A stretch of 64,000 bases of DNA from assembly GCF_025685545.1 (NCBI RefSeq), contig NZ_JAGSYC010000023.1:62001-126000 (forward strand). Direction: 5' to 3'. Shown piece after piece: positions 48,330 through 64,000 of the stretch. The position numbers and the translations under genes were made by a program. The notes under the pieces were generated by a model. It saw nothing but the letters and a program-made list of their open reading frames with translations, did not search any database and had not been told where the DNA came from. This stretch comes from Granulicella paludicola. Its GTDB lineage: Bacteria; Acidobacteriota; Terriglobia; Terriglobales; Acidobacteriaceae. Positions within the stretch are counted from its first letter, which is position 1; the number at the start of each line of letters is the position of its first letter.

Positions 48330-49937
48330 TTAGTGCTGCTCTGCCTCGAAGGTGGCAAAACGGAATTCGAGCTCCAGTTCCTGGAGAGCTTTCTCATTGG
48401 CCATGACGAAGTCCTTACACGCGCCGGTAAGGTGACTGGCGGGTGCAGGGGTAACGGAGCCGCAGACAGCCTTGCGATGGGCGAAGTCGTCCGGCTTCGC
48501 CCAAAGGCTTTCGCCGGCGAGGAACGAGTGCTCCAGCGCGGTGCGAGCGGAGCGCTTGAGGTCGGCGTAGGTGAGGTTCTGCTCGAAGGCTCCCTTGACG
48601 TATTCGCGGGTGAGATCACTGCGGTTGACGCCTTCATCATCGGTGGAGAGCGCCCAGGGAACGTGCGCGGCCATGTAGCTGTGCAGCGGATGGTCGATGC
48701 CCTTCACGCCGAGGATGCCGTCGTTGGAGGTGAGGTTGATCTCGACCATAGTGTGCTGGTCCGCCATCTGCTTGAGGAGCGCGGCAGGATCAGTCTCGTA
48801 CATAACGTCGACGCCATGGCCGATGCGGGAGGCATGGCCGAGGTCGATGGCCTCACGGATGTGGAAGCTCATGCCGTCGGGGGGTACTAAGCCCGGAGCC
48901 AGTTCGCCCGCGTGCAGCGAGAGCTTTACGTCGGGATAGACGGAGTGCAGATAGTCGAGCATCTGCATCTGCAGGTGATAGTCAGCCATGGCGCGGCGGT
49001 CGTCTTCTGGCTGCACGAAGTTGATGCCAACGACGATCGGGCTAGCGGGGTTGGCCTTGAGAGCAGCTTCAGCAACTTCGAAGCCGAGGAGCGTCTGGGC
49101 GAAGACCTGCTCGGGTGGGAAGGCGCGGAGGATCTGGTAGAGGAAGTGGATCTGGATAGAGCACGGCGCAAAGTGTGGATGAGCCGGATCAATCATCAGG
49201 ATGGAGCCGCCACAGTGCTCAATGGTATTGCGCGCGTTGAGAGATGCCTGGAGGTCGTTGATGTCGGTGAGAACTTCTTCTTTGAGGCCGTCGGCGAGGA
49301 GTTTGCTGCGCAGGTCGGCGAGCTGTTCGCGTGAGATGTGCTCGGTGGCACCCGCGGGCCAGCCGAGTTTGTAGCCGAGACCAGCGGCGTGCGCGAAGGG
49401 CGGAGTCTGCATGATCTCGAGGTACTGCTCGTTTTGGGCAGCGGCGCGGGTGGCGACCTCGTCGAGCCATTGGCCGGGGTTCTTCGCAGCGCCGAAGCGA
49501 GCGAAAGTGGCGAAGAACTGGTCGTGGCCGGTCACGCCGGGCGTGGGAACAAAGCCGCGCATGGAGAAGCTGTCGATGAGCGCGTCGTATAGGTGCTGGT
49601 CTTTGAGGACGAAGCTGGCAGCGATTTCACCCTTCGCGCAGTCATGATCCTTCTGCGCAACGTCTAGCGAGAGCGTGGCGGGGTTGACGCAGAGGCCCTG
49701 ATCGACGGCTTCGCGCAGAAAGGTCTCAGCGTAGATGGCGCCGGACAGATGCATGTGGAGATCGGCCCCCTTGGGCATGGACGCGAGAAACGCATAGAGA
49801 GCGGGGGTGCCGGTCTTCTTCGCGGCTTCGAAGGCGAGAGAGGTCCGCGGCTCGGCGTAAGGAGCTTGCGCGCAGAGCGAAGTGCAAGCGGCGAAAAGCA
49901 GGAGCGACGTAGAGATGCGGCGGGCGAGGAGAGACAT
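48330..49937 (-). CDS. Secreted adenosine-deaminase family protein
   Basis: 535 residues from the ATG at 49937, seven bases after GGAGG. A signal peptide ends near residue 24 (AACTSLCAQ). ADA metal-site motifs are all present: HMHLSG (HxH), the SLHAGE region, the IGHG block and STDDEG near the C-terminus. Such enzymes deaminate adenosine or related nucleosides. The export signal and the long N-terminal insert make it resemble ADGF/CECR1-like extracellular deaminases rather than cytosolic ADA (about 340 residues). No purine-salvage gene is adjacent. Confidence 0.9.
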   Translation of the reverse strand: MSLLARRISTSLLLFAACTSLCAQAPYAEPRTSLAFEAAKKTGTPALYAFLASMPKGADLHMHLSGAIYAETFLREAVDQGLCVNPATLSLDVAQKDHDCAKGEIAASFVLKDQHLYDALIDSFSMRGFVPTPGVTGHDQFFATFARFGAAKNPGQWLDEVATRAAAQNEQYLEIMQTPPFAHAAGLGYKLGWPAGATEHISREQLADLRSKLLADGLKEEVLTDINDLQASLNARNTIEHCGGSILMIDPAHPHFAPCSIQIHFLYQILRAFPPEQVFAQTLLGFEVAEAALKANPASPIVVGINFVQPEDDRRAMADYHLQMQMLDYLHSVYPDVKLSLHAGELAPGLVPPDGMSFHIREAIDLGHASRIGHGVDVMYETDPAALLKQMADQHTMVEINLTSNDGILGVKGIDHPLHSYMAAHVPWALSTDDEGVNRSDLTREYVKGAFEQNLTYADLKRSARTALEHSFLAGESLWAKPDDFAHRKAVCGSVTPAPASHLTGACKDFVMANEKALQELELEFRFATFEAEQH

Positions 49938-50300
49938 CGTAAAGCCTCCGAGAGCGGCGGGTGGGTTGGCTTCCATCGTACCTGCTGCGGCGATGTGGAC
50001 GGCAGATTCACGCCGAGACAAAAGCAGGTCCTTCGGCTACGCCTCAGGATGACAATCGATAGGGTGAGCGAAATGCGGCTGGTTTGCACAGGTCAGTAAG
50101 GATGGGTTTGGCGCGAGGGCGAAGGCTTGCTATACTAAGTATGACGTTCTCGATGGCGGCGCGGTGACGGAGTATGACCCGCAAAAGCCAGTTCCCCTCC
50201 CCACAGGCAGGCGACGTTTCGAAACGCACGAGCTTCACGGGCGGACTTGGCTGCGTGTGAAGTAGCTCGGGGGATTTCCCTTGCGCATGTTTCTCCCCAA
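49938..50300. other. Intergenic region upstream of tRNA-Phe
   Basis: 363 bases. A promoter (50108-50136) is followed by about 160 untranslated bases before the tRNA. That stretch contains a hairpin CTTCAC / GTGTGAAG (about 50231-50261) and no coding frame, so it is either a long tRNA leader or a small RNA. Confidence 0.45.
50108..50136 (+). promoter_or_regulatory. Sigma-70 type promoter
   Basis: TTGGCG (50108-50113), a 17-base spacer and TATACT (50131-50136). The best consensus-like promoter seen in the window; it points toward tRNA-Phe. Confidence 0.6.
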
Positions 50301-54968: not shown

Positions 54969-56324
54969 CTAACGAAGCATCTCGTTCAACGGCGGTAACT
55001 CAGCCTCGGGAAGCTGAATCCCTAGTATTTTCGCAATCGTGGGCGCCACCCGCAAATTCGAGATTGCATCCATTTTGACGCCGGGGCGAATAGCAGCTCC
55101 CGAGGCCACAAATAAAGCTTGCATGTCTGAGTTTGAATTCAGGTAACCGTGCGCTCCTTTCGGTGGATGCGTCGTTATTAGCTCCCCGTCTACGTTGTCG
55201 CCGAATGCGAAATCCGGCTTGGCTGTCAGGTACAGCTGAGGTGCCTGATCCGTATCTCTTTCGGAAGGCATGCCAATCGAGCGCGCTTCTTCGTTCGTGT
55301 AGGCATGTTGGATACCTTCGACTCTCTCAAAATATGACTTGAGCTTCGGAACGAGTGCTGCGCGTTGCTTTTCATTACGAATGAACAACTCCGCCGCGCC
55401 ACCTTCGGCCTTGACCCAGACGTCTCCGAAGTATGCGCTGTTGCTCTTGCGCAGCAGTCCCATCTTTACGAGGGCTGCGTTCGGGCTGATCGTGTGCGTG
55501 TACGTCGAGAAACCATGATCGGACAGGACAAAGAAGGTGGTGCGATCGAGCGCTCCCGTCTCACGTACGGCATCCACTACTCGTTCCAGGCAGTGATCGG
55601 CATACGCGTACGCAGCGTATGCAGCTGGCGTCAGGGGCGCGTATGCGTGCTGAATGGAATCAGTCTCCAGCAGATGAAGAAGAAGCAGATCTGGCGTGTG
55701 GTGCTCGATCATATCCACGGCCGCGTCCGTCCATACCTGATCGCGCCAGGCGGGACTGCTCTTTTCGCCAAACTCCAAGACCTCTTCGCGAGTCACCATC
55801 CCACTCGTGATCAGTTCGCGCGCGATCGGGCTATCCGCATTCGGCTTCTCACCAAACTGCCAGTTGACGCCTTTCGCGCCATAGATGGCTACCCAGTCCA
55901 CCTGCCCTGTGGTCAAACCCTTAGCAGCGGCAGCTTCATAGAGTGTCTCTGCGTGGACCAGCTTTGACTTATCCGTCCAGGGTTCAATCGTCGGCTGACC
56001 TTGATCGTCCGGAAATGTAATCAGACCATTGGCGACTACGTGGTGCTTGCTGGCATCCACTCCTGTAATCAAGGTCGTGTGATTCGGCCAGGTCACGGTG
56101 GGATTGATCGGCTGCATGCCGCTTGCCACCGTACCTTTCGCAATTAGAGCCCGCAGCGTCGGCATGGGGAGGCGCGGGTCGAGAAGAGCTCGTGCAGGAA
56201 AACCATCCAACGTGATCACAATGACGACGGACTTCTGCGCGTCAGGCTTTGACACTTTCTGAGACATGCTTGCAGCGCTGGTGACCAAAGCTAAAGCGAA
56301 AAGACACAATCCTTTTTTCAACAC
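54969..56324 (-). CDS. Exported type I phosphodiesterase / nucleotide pyrophosphatase family
   Basis: 451 residues, probably from a GTG at 56324. A signal peptide is present (CLFALALVTSAASMSQ). Metal and nucleophile motifs: VITLDGFPARAL (Asp), NPTVTWPNHTTLITG (Thr nucleophile), LETDSIQHAYAP (Asp/His), LSDHGFSTYTHT (Asp-His) and a final His in ELITTHPPKGAHGYL. Relatives cleave phosphodiester or pyrophosphate bonds outside the cytoplasm. It lies 104 bases after a TonB-dependent receptor on the same strand, suggesting uptake of its product or substrate. Confidence 0.9.
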   Translation of the reverse strand: MLKKGLCLFALALVTSAASMSQKVSKPDAQKSVVIVITLDGFPARALLDPRLPMPTLRALIAKGTVASGMQPINPTVTWPNHTTLITGVDASKHHVVANGLITFPDDQGQPTIEPWTDKSKLVHAETLYEAAAAKGLTTGQVDWVAIYGAKGVNWQFGEKPNADSPIARELITSGMVTREEVLEFGEKSSPAWRDQVWTDAAVDMIEHHTPDLLLLHLLETDSIQHAYAPLTPAAYAAYAYADHCLERVVDAVRETGALDRTTFFVLSDHGFSTYTHTISPNAALVKMGLLRKSNSAYFGDVWVKAEGGAAELFIRNEKQRAALVPKLKSYFERVEGIQHAYTNEEARSIGMPSERDTDQAPQLYLTAKPDFAFGDNVDGELITTHPPKGAHGYLNSNSDMQALFVASGAAIRPGVKMDAISNLRVAPTIAKILGIQLPEAELPPLNEMLR

Positions 56325-56428
56325 TGCTCATTTCTGCGGCTCACCCTCATGCAACCTCCTGCCGCGATGGATATTTGATGGAGGAATTGAGGAGCCACCT
56401 CTTGGCAGCTCCTCGCCAAGATGCAGTT

Positions 56429-59400
56429 TTAGAAGAGGAGCTTCAATCCGAACTGGACCTGCCTGGGTGTGTTGGCCTGGGAAGTGATCTGCCCGAAAGC
56501 CGTATCCGTTACACCCGTGTCCGGATTGCCGAACTGCACATGGTTGAACACATTGAACGTCTCTGCACGGAACTGCACCTTGAGTCTCCAGACCGGACTG
56601 AACTCTTTGAATAGCGAGAGGTCTGTACTGTCCAAACCGGGACCACGAAGGTTGTCATAATAAGCCGGACCATTGCCCAGCGTGAAGGGTGCGGGCTGGC
56701 TGAAGACTGCCGTGTTGAAGTACTTCTTCAGCCTTTGATGGATATCACCGTGCAGGGTGGCGTTCTGACCTGTGGTGTTCGCGAAGAGAGTTTGGAAGTC
56801 GAAGTTGGAAAGCGTATTGCTCGCAGATATCTGCAGAGGCGTTCCTCCCTGCACGGTTGTGATGCCGTTGACCTGCCATCCTCCCAGTACAGCGTCTTCG
56901 GCCCTGGAGATATGGCTACCGAACATGCGTCCTCGTCCAAAAGGAAGATTGTAGATATAGCTCACAATGAAGCGCTGGTGGATGTCATACGAGGCGACAG
57001 CGTAATCCTTCAGCGGATCGAAGCTGTCTTGGTGGTTGGTTCCGTTGTCATAGATCTTTCCGAGCACATAGGAAGCCTGCACCTGTAACCCTGCGGCAAA
57101 GCGCTTGTTGAGGCGAAGCTGCAACGCGTCGTATTGATTGTCGCCGCCTGAAAGAAACAGTGGGAGCATGCTTGTGTATTGCGGATAACGAGTAAGCAGT
57201 TGCGCACGAGTCGTTTGCGGTCCCGTGAGAGCGGCTCCGTTGGTAATCGCACCGTAGAAGGGGTTTGCGACGGACGCTTGAAGTTGTGACCCCAGCGCGA
57301 GATCAGCAACCGGCAGCTGATCAAAGTCGATGCCACCTTCCCTACTCTGTTGTTGTTTGCGACCACGATCTCCGACATAGGCGACATCGACAGTCGTGTC
57401 GTACGGAAGAGCCTGCTGGATATCGAGGTTGTATTGGATGACATACGGTGTCGGCGTGTTCTGCAATACGCCTTCGATCTGTCCGCCAATACCGGTCAAG
57501 AGACCATTCGCGGCTCCCGGTGGCGGTTGGAAGCCCTGAGGAATCGGATTATCCAACAAGGTGCCGTTGGGGGTGATGCCGTTATTATTCGTCGTGCTAA
57601 CCCAGTTGGTCTGTACGCGGAAGCCGTAGGGTCCTACCGTTCCAGCCGCTGCCTGCGCTGAAGGACCGTACACGATCGCTCCGCCACCATGGATGACCGT
57701 GTTCTTGATGGGCTCATAGGAGAATCCGACACGCGGGGCGAGGTTGTTTGCATCCATGTGGTACTGATGACGGCTGTTGCCATTCACACCGACAAAGACC
57801 AGCCCCCTTGAAGACCGGGAACGTAGCTTGCCAGGGGCGATGCAATTGTTGGATTGAAATAATTCATCCGGTTGAAGCGATCAGTGCGTGGCGTGTCAAT
57901 GTCATACCGAAGACCGAGATTCAACGTCAGCTTTGGGTTCACGCGCCAGTCGTCCTGACCGTACCCTGCAAGGTAGTAGCTCTGCGAGGCGTCATCCTTA
58001 TACTCCTGGATCACGTCGCCCGTGCCGATGCCAAGCAGAAACGTTGCGAGTCCGTTACCTGATGTTGAATTGGCAATATTGGGAAGCTGAGTAAAATTCG
58101 TTCCAAAGCTGAAGTTGCCCGCACTGTCCGCGCTCTCATGATCGTTCACGCGAATCAACCGGCCATCAAATCCCACTTTGACCGAATGGGGGCCATGTAC
58201 CCACGTGAGAGAGGAGACAAGGCTGTAGGTCATGAAGGCATTGTGGCGATTGCCATTATTTCCGAGTCCCGTATAGCCCGCCGGCGACAACACCGGGAAT
58301 AGCGGAGTGCTGGTTGCCGCGTCAATATTCGAAGGCAGACCCAGCGTTGAGTCCTGAAACCCAAGGCTGTTGTTCAGATAGTTGTAGAGTGTGCGCGCAA
58401 AGCCGATGCGAGCGTCGTAGATCATGTTCGCCTTCGGAAAAGCCGTGTATCCAATCGTCACACCACGCGAGAAATCCTGACCATCGATCAGACCTTCTGC
58501 GACGGCGTCTGCTGCCGGCCAAAGAGCTTCGGGATAGGACTCATAGAATCGATTCGAGTAACGAGCGAAAACTTTCTGCCTCTCGCTAATCGTGTGATCG
58601 ACGCGAACGTCCCACGCTGTCGTCTGTGTTGGCTCGCCTCCATTCGCAAAATAGTTATTGGTCGCTCCTGCACCCGGCACGTTTGGTAATGGGTAGTACG
58701 AGATCGCCTTCAGAGCAACAGCATTCAGTGGGATATTGATCTTTCCACCTGCAAAGAGGGAGCGGGTGTAGCCGCTGGTGCATGGGTTCTGTCCCGCGAC
58801 AATGCAGGTAGTGGTGAACGGGTTATATATCTGTATGGGTTGGCCGTTGGGTGCCAGGGTCTGAGAAAAGTCACCAGTGCGTTGCAGGGCTGTCGGCACC
58901 GTGGAATACCCTTCATTCTCCTGATTGGCGCGCAGCAACTCCGTCGAAACCATGAAGAAGGTTTTGTTCTTATAAATGGGTCCGCTCAACTCGCCACCGT
59001 ATTGGTTGCGATGGAAGAGCGGTAATGGAACCTTGTTAAGGTTGGAGAAATAGCTGTTTGAATCCAAAGCCGAGTTGCGGATGAACTCAAAAAGCGAACC
59101 ATGAAACTGGTTTGCTCCAGACTTGAAGACGACATTAATGATGCCGTCAAGAGACCGGCCATATTCTGCAGGATAGTTCTGCTCAAATACATGAAACTCG
59201 CCGATCGCGTCGATGGAAGGAAAGACGCCGATACCCGCATTCCCATTGACCGTAGGAAAACCTGCCGGCGTTCCATCGACGATGGTGTCGTGGTAACCCT
59301 GGCGCCCACCGCTGAGCGAAAAACTATTTGAGTTGTAGTCATCACCGACCGAGCCGGAGAAACCCGGGATTAGTTCCAGTAGTGCAAACGGATTACGAGC

Positions 59401-59871
59401 ATTGAGCGGCAGGTCACGAAGGGACTGGCCGTTGACCTCATCGCTGATGACCGAAGTCACTGTATCCAGTCCCGAGACGTCCGCATTGACGCTGATTGTT
59501 TGAGAGACCTGGCCTAGCGCAAGACTGACATCCTGGGTTGCATGCTGGTTCAGTTCAAGCCGGATACCGGTCTGGTCATAGCCCCGAAAGCCTGATGCCT
59601 CGATGTGAAGTGAATAGGTTCCGGGTGCAAGGTTCAGAAGCGAATACTCACCTTTGCCGTTGGCCTGCTGGGTGGTTCGCGCGTTAGTGCCTACATCCGT
59701 AGCAGAGACAGTCGCCCCCGGCACCATGGCGCCAGCGCTGTCTCTAACGATACCGACGAGGCTTGCGCCCGTCTCCTGTCCAAAGCTTGCATGAGCGAAT
59801 ATCGCTACGAAGAGCACGCTCAGAATTCGTAGTCGAACTGAATCGAGGTATTTCATATTTGTAGCCTCCAC
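56429..59871 (-). pseudogene. Oar-like TonB-dependent receptor, interrupted by a frameshift
   Basis: Two abutting reading frames on the minus strand (57784-59871 and 56429-57787) together give one receptor of about 1150 residues. The first half has a signal peptide, a carboxypeptidase-regulatory domain (GIVRDSAGAMVPGATVSATD) and a plug (NARNPFALLELIPGFSG). The second half is the barrel end, closing in VQFGLKLLF. At 57803-57807 (five C on the plus strand) one missing base breaks the frame; adding it restores the usual family reading LQGG-LVFVGVNGNSRHQYH. So it is a mutation, a homopolymer sequencing error or a programmed shift. GGAGG precedes the ATG at 59871. Confidence 0.88.
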
Positions 59872-59962
59872 TAGCCAAAAGCGATCAGCGAATCGAAAAA
59901 CTCGTGCCTGAAGTCATCTCCAGACGCCATCGCGAACGTAGTCGATGTGTCGAAGTAAAGTT

Positions 59963-59986
59963 CAGTGATTTCTCCGAGATTTACTG
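59963..59986. promoter_or_regulatory. Imperfect inverted repeat between receptor and regulator
   Basis: CAGTGATTTCTCCGAGATTTACTG, with a perfect central TCTCCGAGA. It lies in the divergent region upstream of the receptor and may be a control site. Confidence 0.35.
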
Positions 59987-60067
59987 TCGTTGCAAGCTTC
60001 CTGCAGAAAAGAAACAGTACTCGCCGATCCGAGAGCTCAAGGTTTTGGGGGGTGAAGCGGAGGTGAT

Positions 60068-60098
60068 TTACAGATCTGTAACCGCAGCTCCGTTACAG
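60068..60098. promoter_or_regulatory. Palindromic operator candidate TTACAGATCTGTAA plus half-site
   Basis: A perfect 14-bp palindrome at 60068-60081 and a further half-site TTACAG at 60093-60098, 25 bases on. Located 23-53 bases before the regulator ATG at 60121. The arrangement fits a dimeric DNA-binding protein controlling this gene and perhaps the divergent receptor. Confidence 0.55.
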
Positions 60099-60120
60099 TG
60101 AAGCAACAAGGCGACAGGCA

Positions 60121-61548
60121 ATGAATACGGGGTTCCCATCAGAGGCGCTCGAACAGAAAGAAAACATGAGCGCATTGTGGGCGAGCGACCCACGCTATCA
60201 GCTAGCGCAGCGGATCCTTGCAACCCCTGATTTCGTTCGCTCGCCGCAACTCGCCAAATTCCTTCTCTATATCTGCACCATCGCTTTTGAAGAAAATAGG
60301 CAACCACTCACTGAGCAACATATCGGGGTGACGGTCTTCGGACGAGAACCCGGTTACGACTCCGCGGCAGACACAATCGTTCGCTCTCACGCGCTTCGTC
60401 TAAGGCGTCGCCTTGAACAGTACTTTCAGAAAGCGGGTCGGCACGAAGTCCTGCACCTCACCATTCCAAAGGGTAGCTACACTCCTCTGTTTGTTCCGGC
60501 ACCGCCTTCGAACAGTCCCGATGCGCAATCATCAGAACGAGGCCTCACGGAAACGGAGTTTCAAAGAGGCGATCTCGAAGCCGTGCCGCTAACCCCATCC
60601 ATCTCTGACCAGCCAGTGGCGGAAGCTCTCCGCCCAACTGCTTCCATCGCTCCATGGGTCGGGGTGCCGAACGGAAGCAGAAAAAGCCTCTCGCTCGTTT
60701 GGCGATATAGAGTAATCACTGGTTTCCTCGTTGCATTTTCGTTTGTGGTGACTATTGTCTTTGCTCTCCACCTAAGAACACACCTGCGACAGAGCCGGCG
60801 GCATATCCTTTGGGGCAGACTCTTCAATGAAGATCAGCCGACGCAGATTGTTCTTGGCGATTCGGGGTTGGTCCTCTTCCATGCGGTCACGAAGCAATAT
60901 GTAAGCCTGCACGACTACTTGAGCAACGACTACAGCAAGCAGATGCCCTACGTTCAGCACACCGATCCTGAATTTGCTGACTTCCTTCGGCATCGCAGAT
61001 ACACGTCGATGGTGGACGCACTGACACTGGCGCATCTCGTTCGTCTACCTGAAGCGGCCCCGGAGCGCACGCTAGTGCACTATGCGCGCGACATGCACAT
61101 CGAGGATTTTAGTAGTGATAATTTGATCTTGATTGGAGCGGAGGAAGCTGTTCCGTGGGTCGAGCTCTTTGAGAATCACATGAACTTTGTCTTTAGCATC
61201 GATCATCCAGACCGGCATTCGTCGTTTATCAATCGCCGTCCTTTACCTGGAGAACTCGGAGAATACAGTCCAGACTCTGACGGGAAGAAAGGGAAAGCTT
61301 ACGGCGTCATCGCGTTCCTACCAAACCTCGGTACATCAGGCAATGTACTCATCCTCGAAGGCCTCTCCATGGTAGGTACCGAAGCAACCACCGATCTGGC
61401 GATGGATGATAAGAGGCTGCTTCCTTTACTCAACAGCATGCGAAGAAAGGATGGATCGTTACCTCACTTCGAGATGCTGTTGGAGAGTGACTCTCTCGGC
61501 GATGGCCCCGGACCTGCACGCGTGGTCGCGATCCATCTGCACGACTGA
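60121..61548 (+). CDS. Transmembrane regulator-like protein with N-terminal DNA-binding-type domain
   Basis: 475 residues. The cytoplasmic N-terminus (about 23-126) contains RILATPDFVRSPQLAKFLLY, REPGYDSAADTIVRSHALRL and RRRLEQYF, and ends in LHLTIPKGSYTPLF. This looks like a winged-helix type domain, as in CadC/ToxR-like proteins. A linker of about 70 residues is followed by one membrane helix (196-218). The C-terminal 255 residues would be periplasmic, including LGDSGLVLFHAVTKQYVSLH. It is divergent from a TonB-dependent receptor and a phosphodiesterase. Role as a one-component sensor is inferred; the family is not named. Confidence 0.75.
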   Translation: MNTGFPSEALEQKENMSALWASDPRYQLAQRILATPDFVRSPQLAKFLLYICTIAFEENRQPLTEQHIGVTVFGREPGYDSAADTIVRSHALRLRRRLEQYFQKAGRHEVLHLTIPKGSYTPLFVPAPPSNSPDAQSSERGLTETEFQRGDLEAVPLTPSISDQPVAEALRPTASIAPWVGVPNGSRKSLSLVWRYRVITGFLVAFSFVVTIVFALHLRTHLRQSRRHILWGRLFNEDQPTQIVLGDSGLVLFHAVTKQYVSLHDYLSNDYSKQMPYVQHTDPEFADFLRHRRYTSMVDALTLAHLVRLPEAAPERTLVHYARDMHIEDFSSDNLILIGAEEAVPWVELFENHMNFVFSIDHPDRHSSFINRRPLPGELGEYSPDSDGKKGKAYGVIAFLPNLGTSGNVLILEGLSMVGTEATTDLAMDDKRLLPLLNSMRRKDGSLPHFEMLLESDSLGDGPGPARVVAIHLHD

Positions 61549-61701: not shown

Positions 61702-64000
61702 TTAGAACTCGACACGGACGGAGACCTGTCCGGTGCGAGCTCCACCGAAGTCCGAGCCTCGCGCTGAAGTAATGACCCCGAAGTTGGGGTTTGAGATATC
61801 CAGCTGCGGATCGGCGAGGTTGGTGTGGTTTAGAACGTTGGTAAAGGTGCCCTCGGCCCGCAGCTTGACGCCCGCAGTAATCGCAAAGCTCTTGCTCAGG
61901 CCCGCCGAGAGGTTGACAGTGCCGGGACCGACGATGTCGCCCACCTGGGCGTTGCCGAAGCGACCGATAGGGGCCGGTGCGGTGTCGGACTTGCCATCGG
62001 CAAACTTCTGCGTGGTGCCAGGCGCTGCACCCGTGATGCAGGGGTTGCCGGGCTCCCAGTTCGGATCGCCTGGGCAGACGAAGGAAGCTTTGTTGATCCA
62101 GTTCGCGCGGCCCTGATTAGCAGGTTTGGCCGCCCCTACCCGGTCCACATGCTGAGCTCGGCCTGGGTAGGTTCCGCCCTGGAAGTTCGAGCTCAAGCCT
62201 GAGCCGGTACCGGAGGGATCGCCTTGTCCACCGCTGAAGTAGGGCGTGAGGAACGGGCCCGTCTGCAGCAGGAAGATGCTACTGACCTGCCAGCCGCCGA
62301 GCAGCGCGTCTTCAAAGCGGTTGATATTGTTGCCGAAATCCCGGCCCCGACCATATGGAAGTTGATAGACCACCGTTGTGTTCCAACGATGACGGCGTGT
62401 GCCATAAACCTGTCCGAAGTCGATGGCTCGATTGGACGCCCAGGAGGCGCGAGCGCCGCCGGTCTCGCCGGAGAAACTACCGCTGTTCGGGCCCTGGTTA
62501 TCGGCGAGATTCTTGGCCAGGGTGTAAGTGGAATCGAAGGTGAGACCGCGTGAGGCGTGATGACTCACATTGATCTGCACGGACTGATAGTTGGCATTTG
62601 CACCAGTAGAGCGAGAGTTGACGATACCCCAGTTCGGGAAGGGGCGAGCGCTCAGCGGCTGGTTGTAGGCCGAGGTCGTCTTCGACTCACTGGTGAGGTC
62701 GTTGTAGTTCGGAGCCCACTCCAGATCGTTCGACTCCATCCCGATGTACGAGATCCGAGTGCCGTAGCCGCCGGCAAACTCGTGGTCAATGGAGAGCGTG
62801 GCCTGCTCCGAGTAAGGGTCCTTCCAGTGGATGTCGTTGGCTGTGCCGAAGTAGGCTGTGCCGAGTGTTGCGGTGTTGGAGCTGGTACCCGAACCGGCAA
62901 AGATCTGTGGCCAGCTGTAGGCAGGACCCTTTGCTGTCTCGCTGTTTGCATAGATCGTTGTACCGGACTGGAGAGTGCCTGTCAGCGAGTAGAAGCTGCC
63001 ACCAAGGCTAGAGATGCTGTACATGGCGAAGCCGCCACGAATGGCTGTGCGCGCATCGTTGAACGGACGGTAAGCGAAACCGAATCGCGGCATGAAGCGC
63101 TTTGTCTCGGTTGTGCGCAGGCTGGAGGAGAGACCGGCCTGCGTATTATCGAGCACCGGCGTGCAAGGCGCGCCATTCGCCGAAGCGCCCGTGGTCGTGC
63201 CGATCGCGCAGGCGTTGAACGAGGCAAGATAGCCCGCGTTCAGGTTCTGCTCGCCGCCATCGGGGTAGATCACTTGGGCGGAAAGGGGCACCGCGGGATT
63301 GAAGTTGCCGATGTTGCGGCCGCTATCGTGGTAGCCGGGCTGCAAATCGTAGCGAAGTCCGAAGGTGAGTGTGAGGCGCTGTGAGGCCTTCCACTGATCC
63401 TGGGCATAGAAGGAATAGTGCATATCCACGCCGTCGTTGTCTGACGTGACGACGTCGTACGCGGTGGCCTGTGGAACACCGGCGAGAAAGTCGCCGAACT
63501 CCTGGCCGGTGAAGGTCTGTGCCTGTGCATAGTTGAAGGTGCCATAGTTGTCAGCGCCGTAGAAGCCGAGCGGCGTGAGCGCCTCAAGATGGCGGACATC
63601 GGCACCGAACTTCATGGTGTGGGCACCCTTCGCCCAGGTGAGAGAGTCGGCGTATTGAAAGAGGCGAGACTTCGTCGTCGAAGCAAGCCGGTCGGCATTC
63701 AAGCTGCTGAGTGTCTTGAAGTCGAGTTCGGAGATGCCGTTGAAGAACAGGTTCTGCAATCCTTGAAGACCTGTGCTGGCGGCAAAGGAAGAACCGTTGA
63801 AGCCGTTGGAGGTGCCGGTTGTGTCCAGCGTGAAGCCGAAGCGAAACTCGTTCACCAGATTCTGCGTGAAAGAGTAGTTCGCCGCCGCGACGAAGACGCG
63901 ATCCTGGCCAATGGACGAACCGGAGGGAACATTAAGCGGCTCGGGATTAATCTGATTGATGTTCTTCCAGGTATAGCGGGCGAAGACGAGCGCCTTCTGG
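61702..64000 (-). CDS. Oar-like TonB-dependent receptor, C-terminal part, cut by window edge
   Basis: The frame is open from the window edge to the stop at 61702, about 765 residues; the signal, regulatory domain and plug lie outside. The barrel carries family blocks such as YDLQPGYHDSGRNIGNFNPA, FMPRFGFAYRPFNDARTAIR, YQLPYGRGRDFG and the closing GGARTGQVSVRVEF. It is related to the frameshifted receptor at 56429 but clearly different in sequence. Such receptors take up large substrates, often glycans, with TonB energy. The substrate is unknown. Confidence 0.9.
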   Translation of the reverse strand, partial: QKALVFARYTWKNINQINPEPLNVPSGSSIGQDRVFVAAANYSFTQNLVNEFRFGFTLDTTGTSNGFNGSSFAASTGLQGLQNLFFNGISELDFKTLSSLNADRLASTTKSRLFQYADSLTWAKGAHTMKFGADVRHLEALTPLGFYGADNYGTFNYAQAQTFTGQEFGDFLAGVPQATAYDVVTSDNDGVDMHYSFYAQDQWKASQRLTLTFGLRYDLQPGYHDSGRNIGNFNPAVPLSAQVIYPDGGEQNLNAGYLASFNACAIGTTTGASANGAPCTPVLDNTQAGLSSSLRTTETKRFMPRFGFAYRPFNDARTAIRGGFAMYSISSLGGSFYSLTGTLQSGTTIYANSETAKGPAYSWPQIFAGSGTSSNTATLGTAYFGTANDIHWKDPYSEQATLSIDHEFAGGYGTRISYIGMESNDLEWAPNYNDLTSESKTTSAYNQPLSARPFPNWGIVNSRSTGANANYQSVQINVSHHASRGLTFDSTYTLAKNLADNQGPNSGSFSGETGGARASWASNRAIDFGQVYGTRRHRWNTTVVYQLPYGRGRDFGNNINRFEDALLGGWQVSSIFLLQTGPFLTPYFSGGQGDPSGTGSGLSSNFQGGTYPGRAQHVDRVGAAKPANQGRANWINKASFVCPGDPNWEPGNPCITGAAPGTTQKFADGKSDTAPAPIGRFGNAQVGDIVGPGTVNLSAGLSKSFAITAGVKLRAEGTFTNVLNHTNLADPQLDISNPNFGVITSARGSDFGGARTGQVSVRVEF

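Follow-up and report, generated by a model that had tools for sequence, protein, structure and literature searches.

A putative CadC/ToxR-like membrane regulator divergent to an Oar-type receptor and phosphodiesterase module in an Acidobacteriaceae genome

Regulators of the CadC/ToxR type combine an N-terminal OmpR-type winged helix, a single membrane helix and a C-terminal sensor part, and have no phosphorylation domain. In the FecI/FecR/FecA system, a sigma and an anti-sigma factor couple a TonB-dependent receptor to expression of the gene that encodes it. In the polysaccharide utilisation loci of Bacteroidota, SusC/D are accompanied by SusR, hybrid two-component or ECF regulators. Here we describe a locus in a 64-kb window (the whole stretch of DNA analysed) from a genome of 4.96 Mb, the named relatives of which belong to Acidobacteriaceae, for example Granulicella and Bryocella. 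Its regulator appears to share the CadC/ToxR architecture, but the winged helix is too divergent for Pfam Trans_reg_C, the sensor domain has no Pfam match or close solved relative, and the presumed target genes encode a TonB-dependent receptor of the outer membrane and a hydrolase, within a large paralogous expansion. As in FecI/FecR/FecA, a TonB-dependent receptor would be coupled to the expression of the gene encoding it, although one protein takes the place of sigma plus anti-sigma. Like the Bacteroidota loci, it unites a regulator, a CarboxypepD_reg-bearing TonB-dependent receptor and a substrate-cleaving enzyme in one locus; it differs in its one-component regulator and divergent gene order. 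A search of the open-access literature, with subscription journals and preprints outside its coverage, found no prior description of this regulator–receptor arrangement.

Three genes lie between 54969 and 61548 (Table 1). The receptor and phosphodiesterase genes are on the minus strand and the gene for the 475-residue regulator is on the plus strand, divergent to the receptor gene at a spacing of about 250 bp. All three were found where a sequence-only reading of the window had placed them, back to back. An adenosine deaminase gene (48330–50021) was rejected as part of the module, since it is absent near orthologous modules within the flanks examined.

Table 1. Features of the locus, in window coordinates
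Feature	Coordinates	Strand	Basis
Exported type I phosphodiesterase / nucleotide pyrophosphatase, third module gene	54969..56324	-	PF01663 (E 1.2e-44); NPP-family structures
Oar-type TonB-dependent receptor, C-terminal barrel part, different frame	56429..57787	-	PF25183 424-838
Oar-type TonB-dependent receptor, N-terminal part (CarboxypepD_reg, plug, first barrel part)	57784..59871	-	PF13620, PF07715, PF25183 1-413
Conserved element A (TTCAGTGATTTCTCCGAGATT), towards receptor gene	59961..59981		Nine-orthologue alignment
Conserved operator element B, GGTGAAGCGGAGGTGATTTACAGATCTGTAAC (candidate)	60051..60082	+	Orthologue alignment, family motif, second-set test
TACAGT, -10-like box (TAnnnT)	60094..60099	+	T..T about 10-11 bp past second half-site in 31 promoters
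One-component membrane-bound regulator (putative), 475 aa, ATG start	60121..61548	+	ORF, AlphaFold model, profile and structure comparison
Regulator domains: winged helix ~20-126, linker 134-188, hydrophobic helix ~195-220, C-terminal sensor domain ~226-475 (~250 aa)

Scans of the regulator against Pfam and NCBIfam returned no meaningful match, and a profile search against PDB sequences gave nothing useful. An AlphaFold model built from 24 homologues (pLDDT 82.6) shows a confident helical N-terminal domain with a terminal beta hairpin, followed by the disordered linker, a helix (residues 189–224) and an alpha/beta C-terminal domain. Trans_reg_C was found below its cut-off in nine of 24 family members (best E 0.0023). 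When the N-terminal domain was compared by hhalign with 16 OmpR-type domains from this genome, the match reached 92.7% (E 4.2e-7) and spanned their recognition-helix region and wing. Modelled alone (pLDDT 94), the domain gave two SaeR DNA-binding domains as its best structural matches (prob 0.91 and 0.89, E 0.08 and 0.17), with RpaA and CovR lower among the matches and no structural match at E < 0.001. Because these structural E-values are weak, we built the fold assignment on the agreement between profile and structure, according to which the N-terminal domain appears to resemble an OmpR-type winged helix. This is consistent with the DNA-binding-type domain proposed earlier.

The single membrane helix suggested by the same reading corresponds to a single strongly hydrophobic stretch, picked up by 19-residue windows that start at residues 195–204. 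A hydrophobic segment follows the winged helix in 130 of 131 distinct family members, and more than one peak was seen in one member. Charges flanking the helix are similar on either side (+1.7 on the N side, +1.35 on the C side). The best structural matches of the whole model were to BcsB, a periplasmic cellulose synthase subunit, over about 200 columns (prob 0.97–0.99, E 3e-3, TM-score about 0.22 for the whole query). We take this match, as no more than a hint, to fall in the C-terminal domain, and it is not evidence of common function.

The receptor has the CarboxypepD_reg domain, plug and OMP_b-brl_4 barrel of the Oar type, spread over two frames, the plug match being weak and below the Pfam cut-off. 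A Pfam scan of the receptor up to E 1 revealed no STN domain, and a search of the whole genome for FecR (PF04773, E <= 0.001) gave no match, in line with the proposal that the locus is unlike the FecR-type route. The two frames are separated by a frameshift near 57784–57810, close to five consecutive G at about 57800, which may be an assembly error or a real mutation; four orthologous receptors that were compared are single continuous frames. Hence the receptor does lie beside the regulator as had been read, but as a split gene and not as one open frame in this assembly, and the module may therefore be non-working in this strain. The genome encodes about 64 Oar-type receptors, most of which have no such regulator adjoining.

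The three-gene module is conserved, with the phosphodiesterase following the receptor in all orthologous loci (65–69% identical, some loci being counted twice). In paralogous loci the post-receptor gene often encodes a hydrolase, including GH78-like and GH106 rhamnosidases, GH92, GH31, GH2 and GH1 enzymes, and an alginate lyase, an amidohydrolase and a 2H-phosphodiesterase also occur at this position. Among 20 hand-picked post-receptor genes that were scanned, 16 had a match, mostly to such enzymes. The simplest reading is of uptake loci that are each specific for a substrate and equipped with a membrane-bound switch of their own.

Receptors recur beside homologues of the regulator, which the sequence-only reading had named as a check. 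Of 100 sensor-type members sampled, 66 have a divergent receptor no more than 1.5 kb away, numbers that are not fully independent because a few of these first-set loci were counted twice, from different collections. A second set, drawn mostly from other genera, gave 23 of 37, and in six further members a receptor gene follows immediately downstream in the same orientation. By a strict count in this genome, eight of 11 members are paired, compared with none of 12 response regulators, and given 64 receptors in the genome about 1% would be expected from random pairing. Roughly one-third of members have no divergent receptor nearby. Since the member loci were picked by similarity to the window protein, the pairing rates are valid for this part of the family.

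The family has 11 members in this genome, and some relatives show about 30 family hits, where one protein can yield two. A family match was present in 19 of 149 genomes sampled across the phylum; 14 of these 19 belong to the same taxonomic family, so the expansion is mainly one of Acidobacteriaceae. One paralogue (L023 9105, plus strand) also faces a receptor and carries a C-terminal part, TolB/TPR-like by its sequence, in place of the sensor. TolB-like/TPR winged-helix proteins share the N-terminal domain, whereas their C-terminal part is unrelated to the window sensor domain. This genome also encodes six larger one-component proteins that carry a canonical Trans_reg_C domain, and two of them, G000:C13:10334 and G000:C24:14589, likewise lie divergent to Oar-type receptors.

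The sequence-only reading had proposed a perfect 14-bp palindrome as the operator. This sequence, TTACAGATCTGTAA at 60068–60081 within element B, occurs once in the genome. Three perfect 14-bp palindromes were observed in the window against about four expected (64000/4^7), so that such a palindrome is by itself unremarkable and draws its weight from the conservation of the surrounding sites. Alignment of nine orthologous intergenic regions showed that GGTGAARYG-AGGTGATTYAC-N5-TGTAAY is kept in eight, and a second conserved block, CAGTGATTTCTC-GNGAT, is found on the receptor side of the first, at a distance of about 100 bp. The proposed site is therefore conserved, but the exact palindrome is not: it is inexact in orthologues, and a pair of half-sites spaced by 11 bp (TTTAC at 60067–60071 and GTAAC at 60078–60082) fits better. 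Elements A and B have GTGATTT in common, and two of its three occurrences in the window are these.

Motif discovery in 59 non-redundant promoters gave a best log-likelihood of 197, compared with 98–100 for shuffled sequence. The resulting family motif, ATTYAC-N6-TTTCAT-N10-TAnnnT (elsewhere WTTYAC-N6-TTCAT), is present in 31 promoters. The half-site signal is confined to offsets 0 and +11 (z 9.1 and 7.0), and a tandem array of three or four 11-bp repeats, suggested by eye in a few promoters, was unsupported family-wide. Applied to 43 promoters of the second set, the first-genome profile scored 14 above the null 95th percentile (about 2 expected, p 3e-6) and 10 above the 99.5th percentile (about 0.2 expected). 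About half of the first set and a third of the second have a strong version of the shared operator, and the remainder score like shuffled sequence. The additional half-site that had been noted before the regulator is present as sequence (60092–60100), but coincides with the -10-like TAnnnT box of the family, and the TACAGT within it may be the -10 element of the regulator's own promoter. A genome-wide regulon on the same site was considered and rejected; the wider-family pattern had two hits and the orthologue pattern one exact hit, which suggests that the site is local.

Recurrent receptor pairing, the conserved site and the OmpR-type winged helix together favour the earlier proposal of a one-component sensor beside an uptake gene. 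We consider that the protein is probably a CadC/ToxR-like one-component regulator with an undescribed sensor domain, which would sense a periplasmic ligand and switch the adjacent receptor–phosphodiesterase operon. The cytoplasmic winged helix would bind the two half-sites of element B before its own promoter, and may also bind the related element A, closer to the receptor. The C-terminal domain, presumed to lie in the periplasm, would sense a ligand, probably the compound imported by the adjoining Oar-type receptor or a product of that compound; for this module, a phosphodiester compound is suggested. The regulator would thereby alter transcription of the receptor–phosphodiesterase operon, most likely upwards, and each paralogue would mainly serve its own adjacent receptor–hydrolase locus.

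Element B is situated at the promoter of the regulator itself, so control of the receptor, if direct, would rest on element A and on adjacency. The regulator might thus act through element B on its own gene only, with another factor driving the receptor operon through element A and adjacency reflecting joint inheritance. The fixed distance between element B and the -10-like box, and the partial similarity of element A to element B, are in keeping with this arrangement. We nevertheless regard it as unlikely, since the shared GTGATTT is rare in the window, and the divergent arrangement is repeated across many paralogues with varied receptors and enzymes, which joint inheritance explains poorly. 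The direction of control bears on a further alternative, in which the protein is a repressor relieved by ligand. Divergent regulator–target pairs are often under repressor control, and the half-sites are near the -10-like box. However, their 11-bp spacing and distance to this box recall PhoB boxes: half-sites that precede the -10-like box by about 10 bp, in the absence of a clear -35, have the layout of OmpR-family activators. We consider repression unlikely.

It is also conceivable that the N-terminal domain no longer binds DNA and that the protein is an inner-membrane-anchored periplasmic accessory of the receptor. In favour of this, the window protein lacks a Pfam match and the E-values of its structural matches are weak. 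The OmpR-type profile match, the Trans_reg_C hits among family members, the nature of the structural matches (SaeR, RpaA and CovR) and the presence of a conserved operator within the same intergenic regions all argue against this idea, which we judge very unlikely.

On a broader scale, Acidobacteriaceae may run a large share of their nutrient-uptake loci by private one-component membrane regulators, one per receptor, that read periplasmic substrates via an undescribed sensor domain and replace sigma/anti-sigma or hybrid two-component systems; we would give this generalization an even chance. Acidobacteriota rank with the most abundant bacteria of soils, and little is known of their polymer sensing. 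Adjacency of regulator, receptor and enzyme would let genomes reveal substrate specificity, a sensor family that reaches about 30 copies in some genomes would supply a resource for biosensors, and the shared operator renders the idea testable. The regulator gene has a second Oar-type receptor gene on its other side (61702–64000, minus strand), which ends convergently about 150 bp from it, an unusual double flanking.
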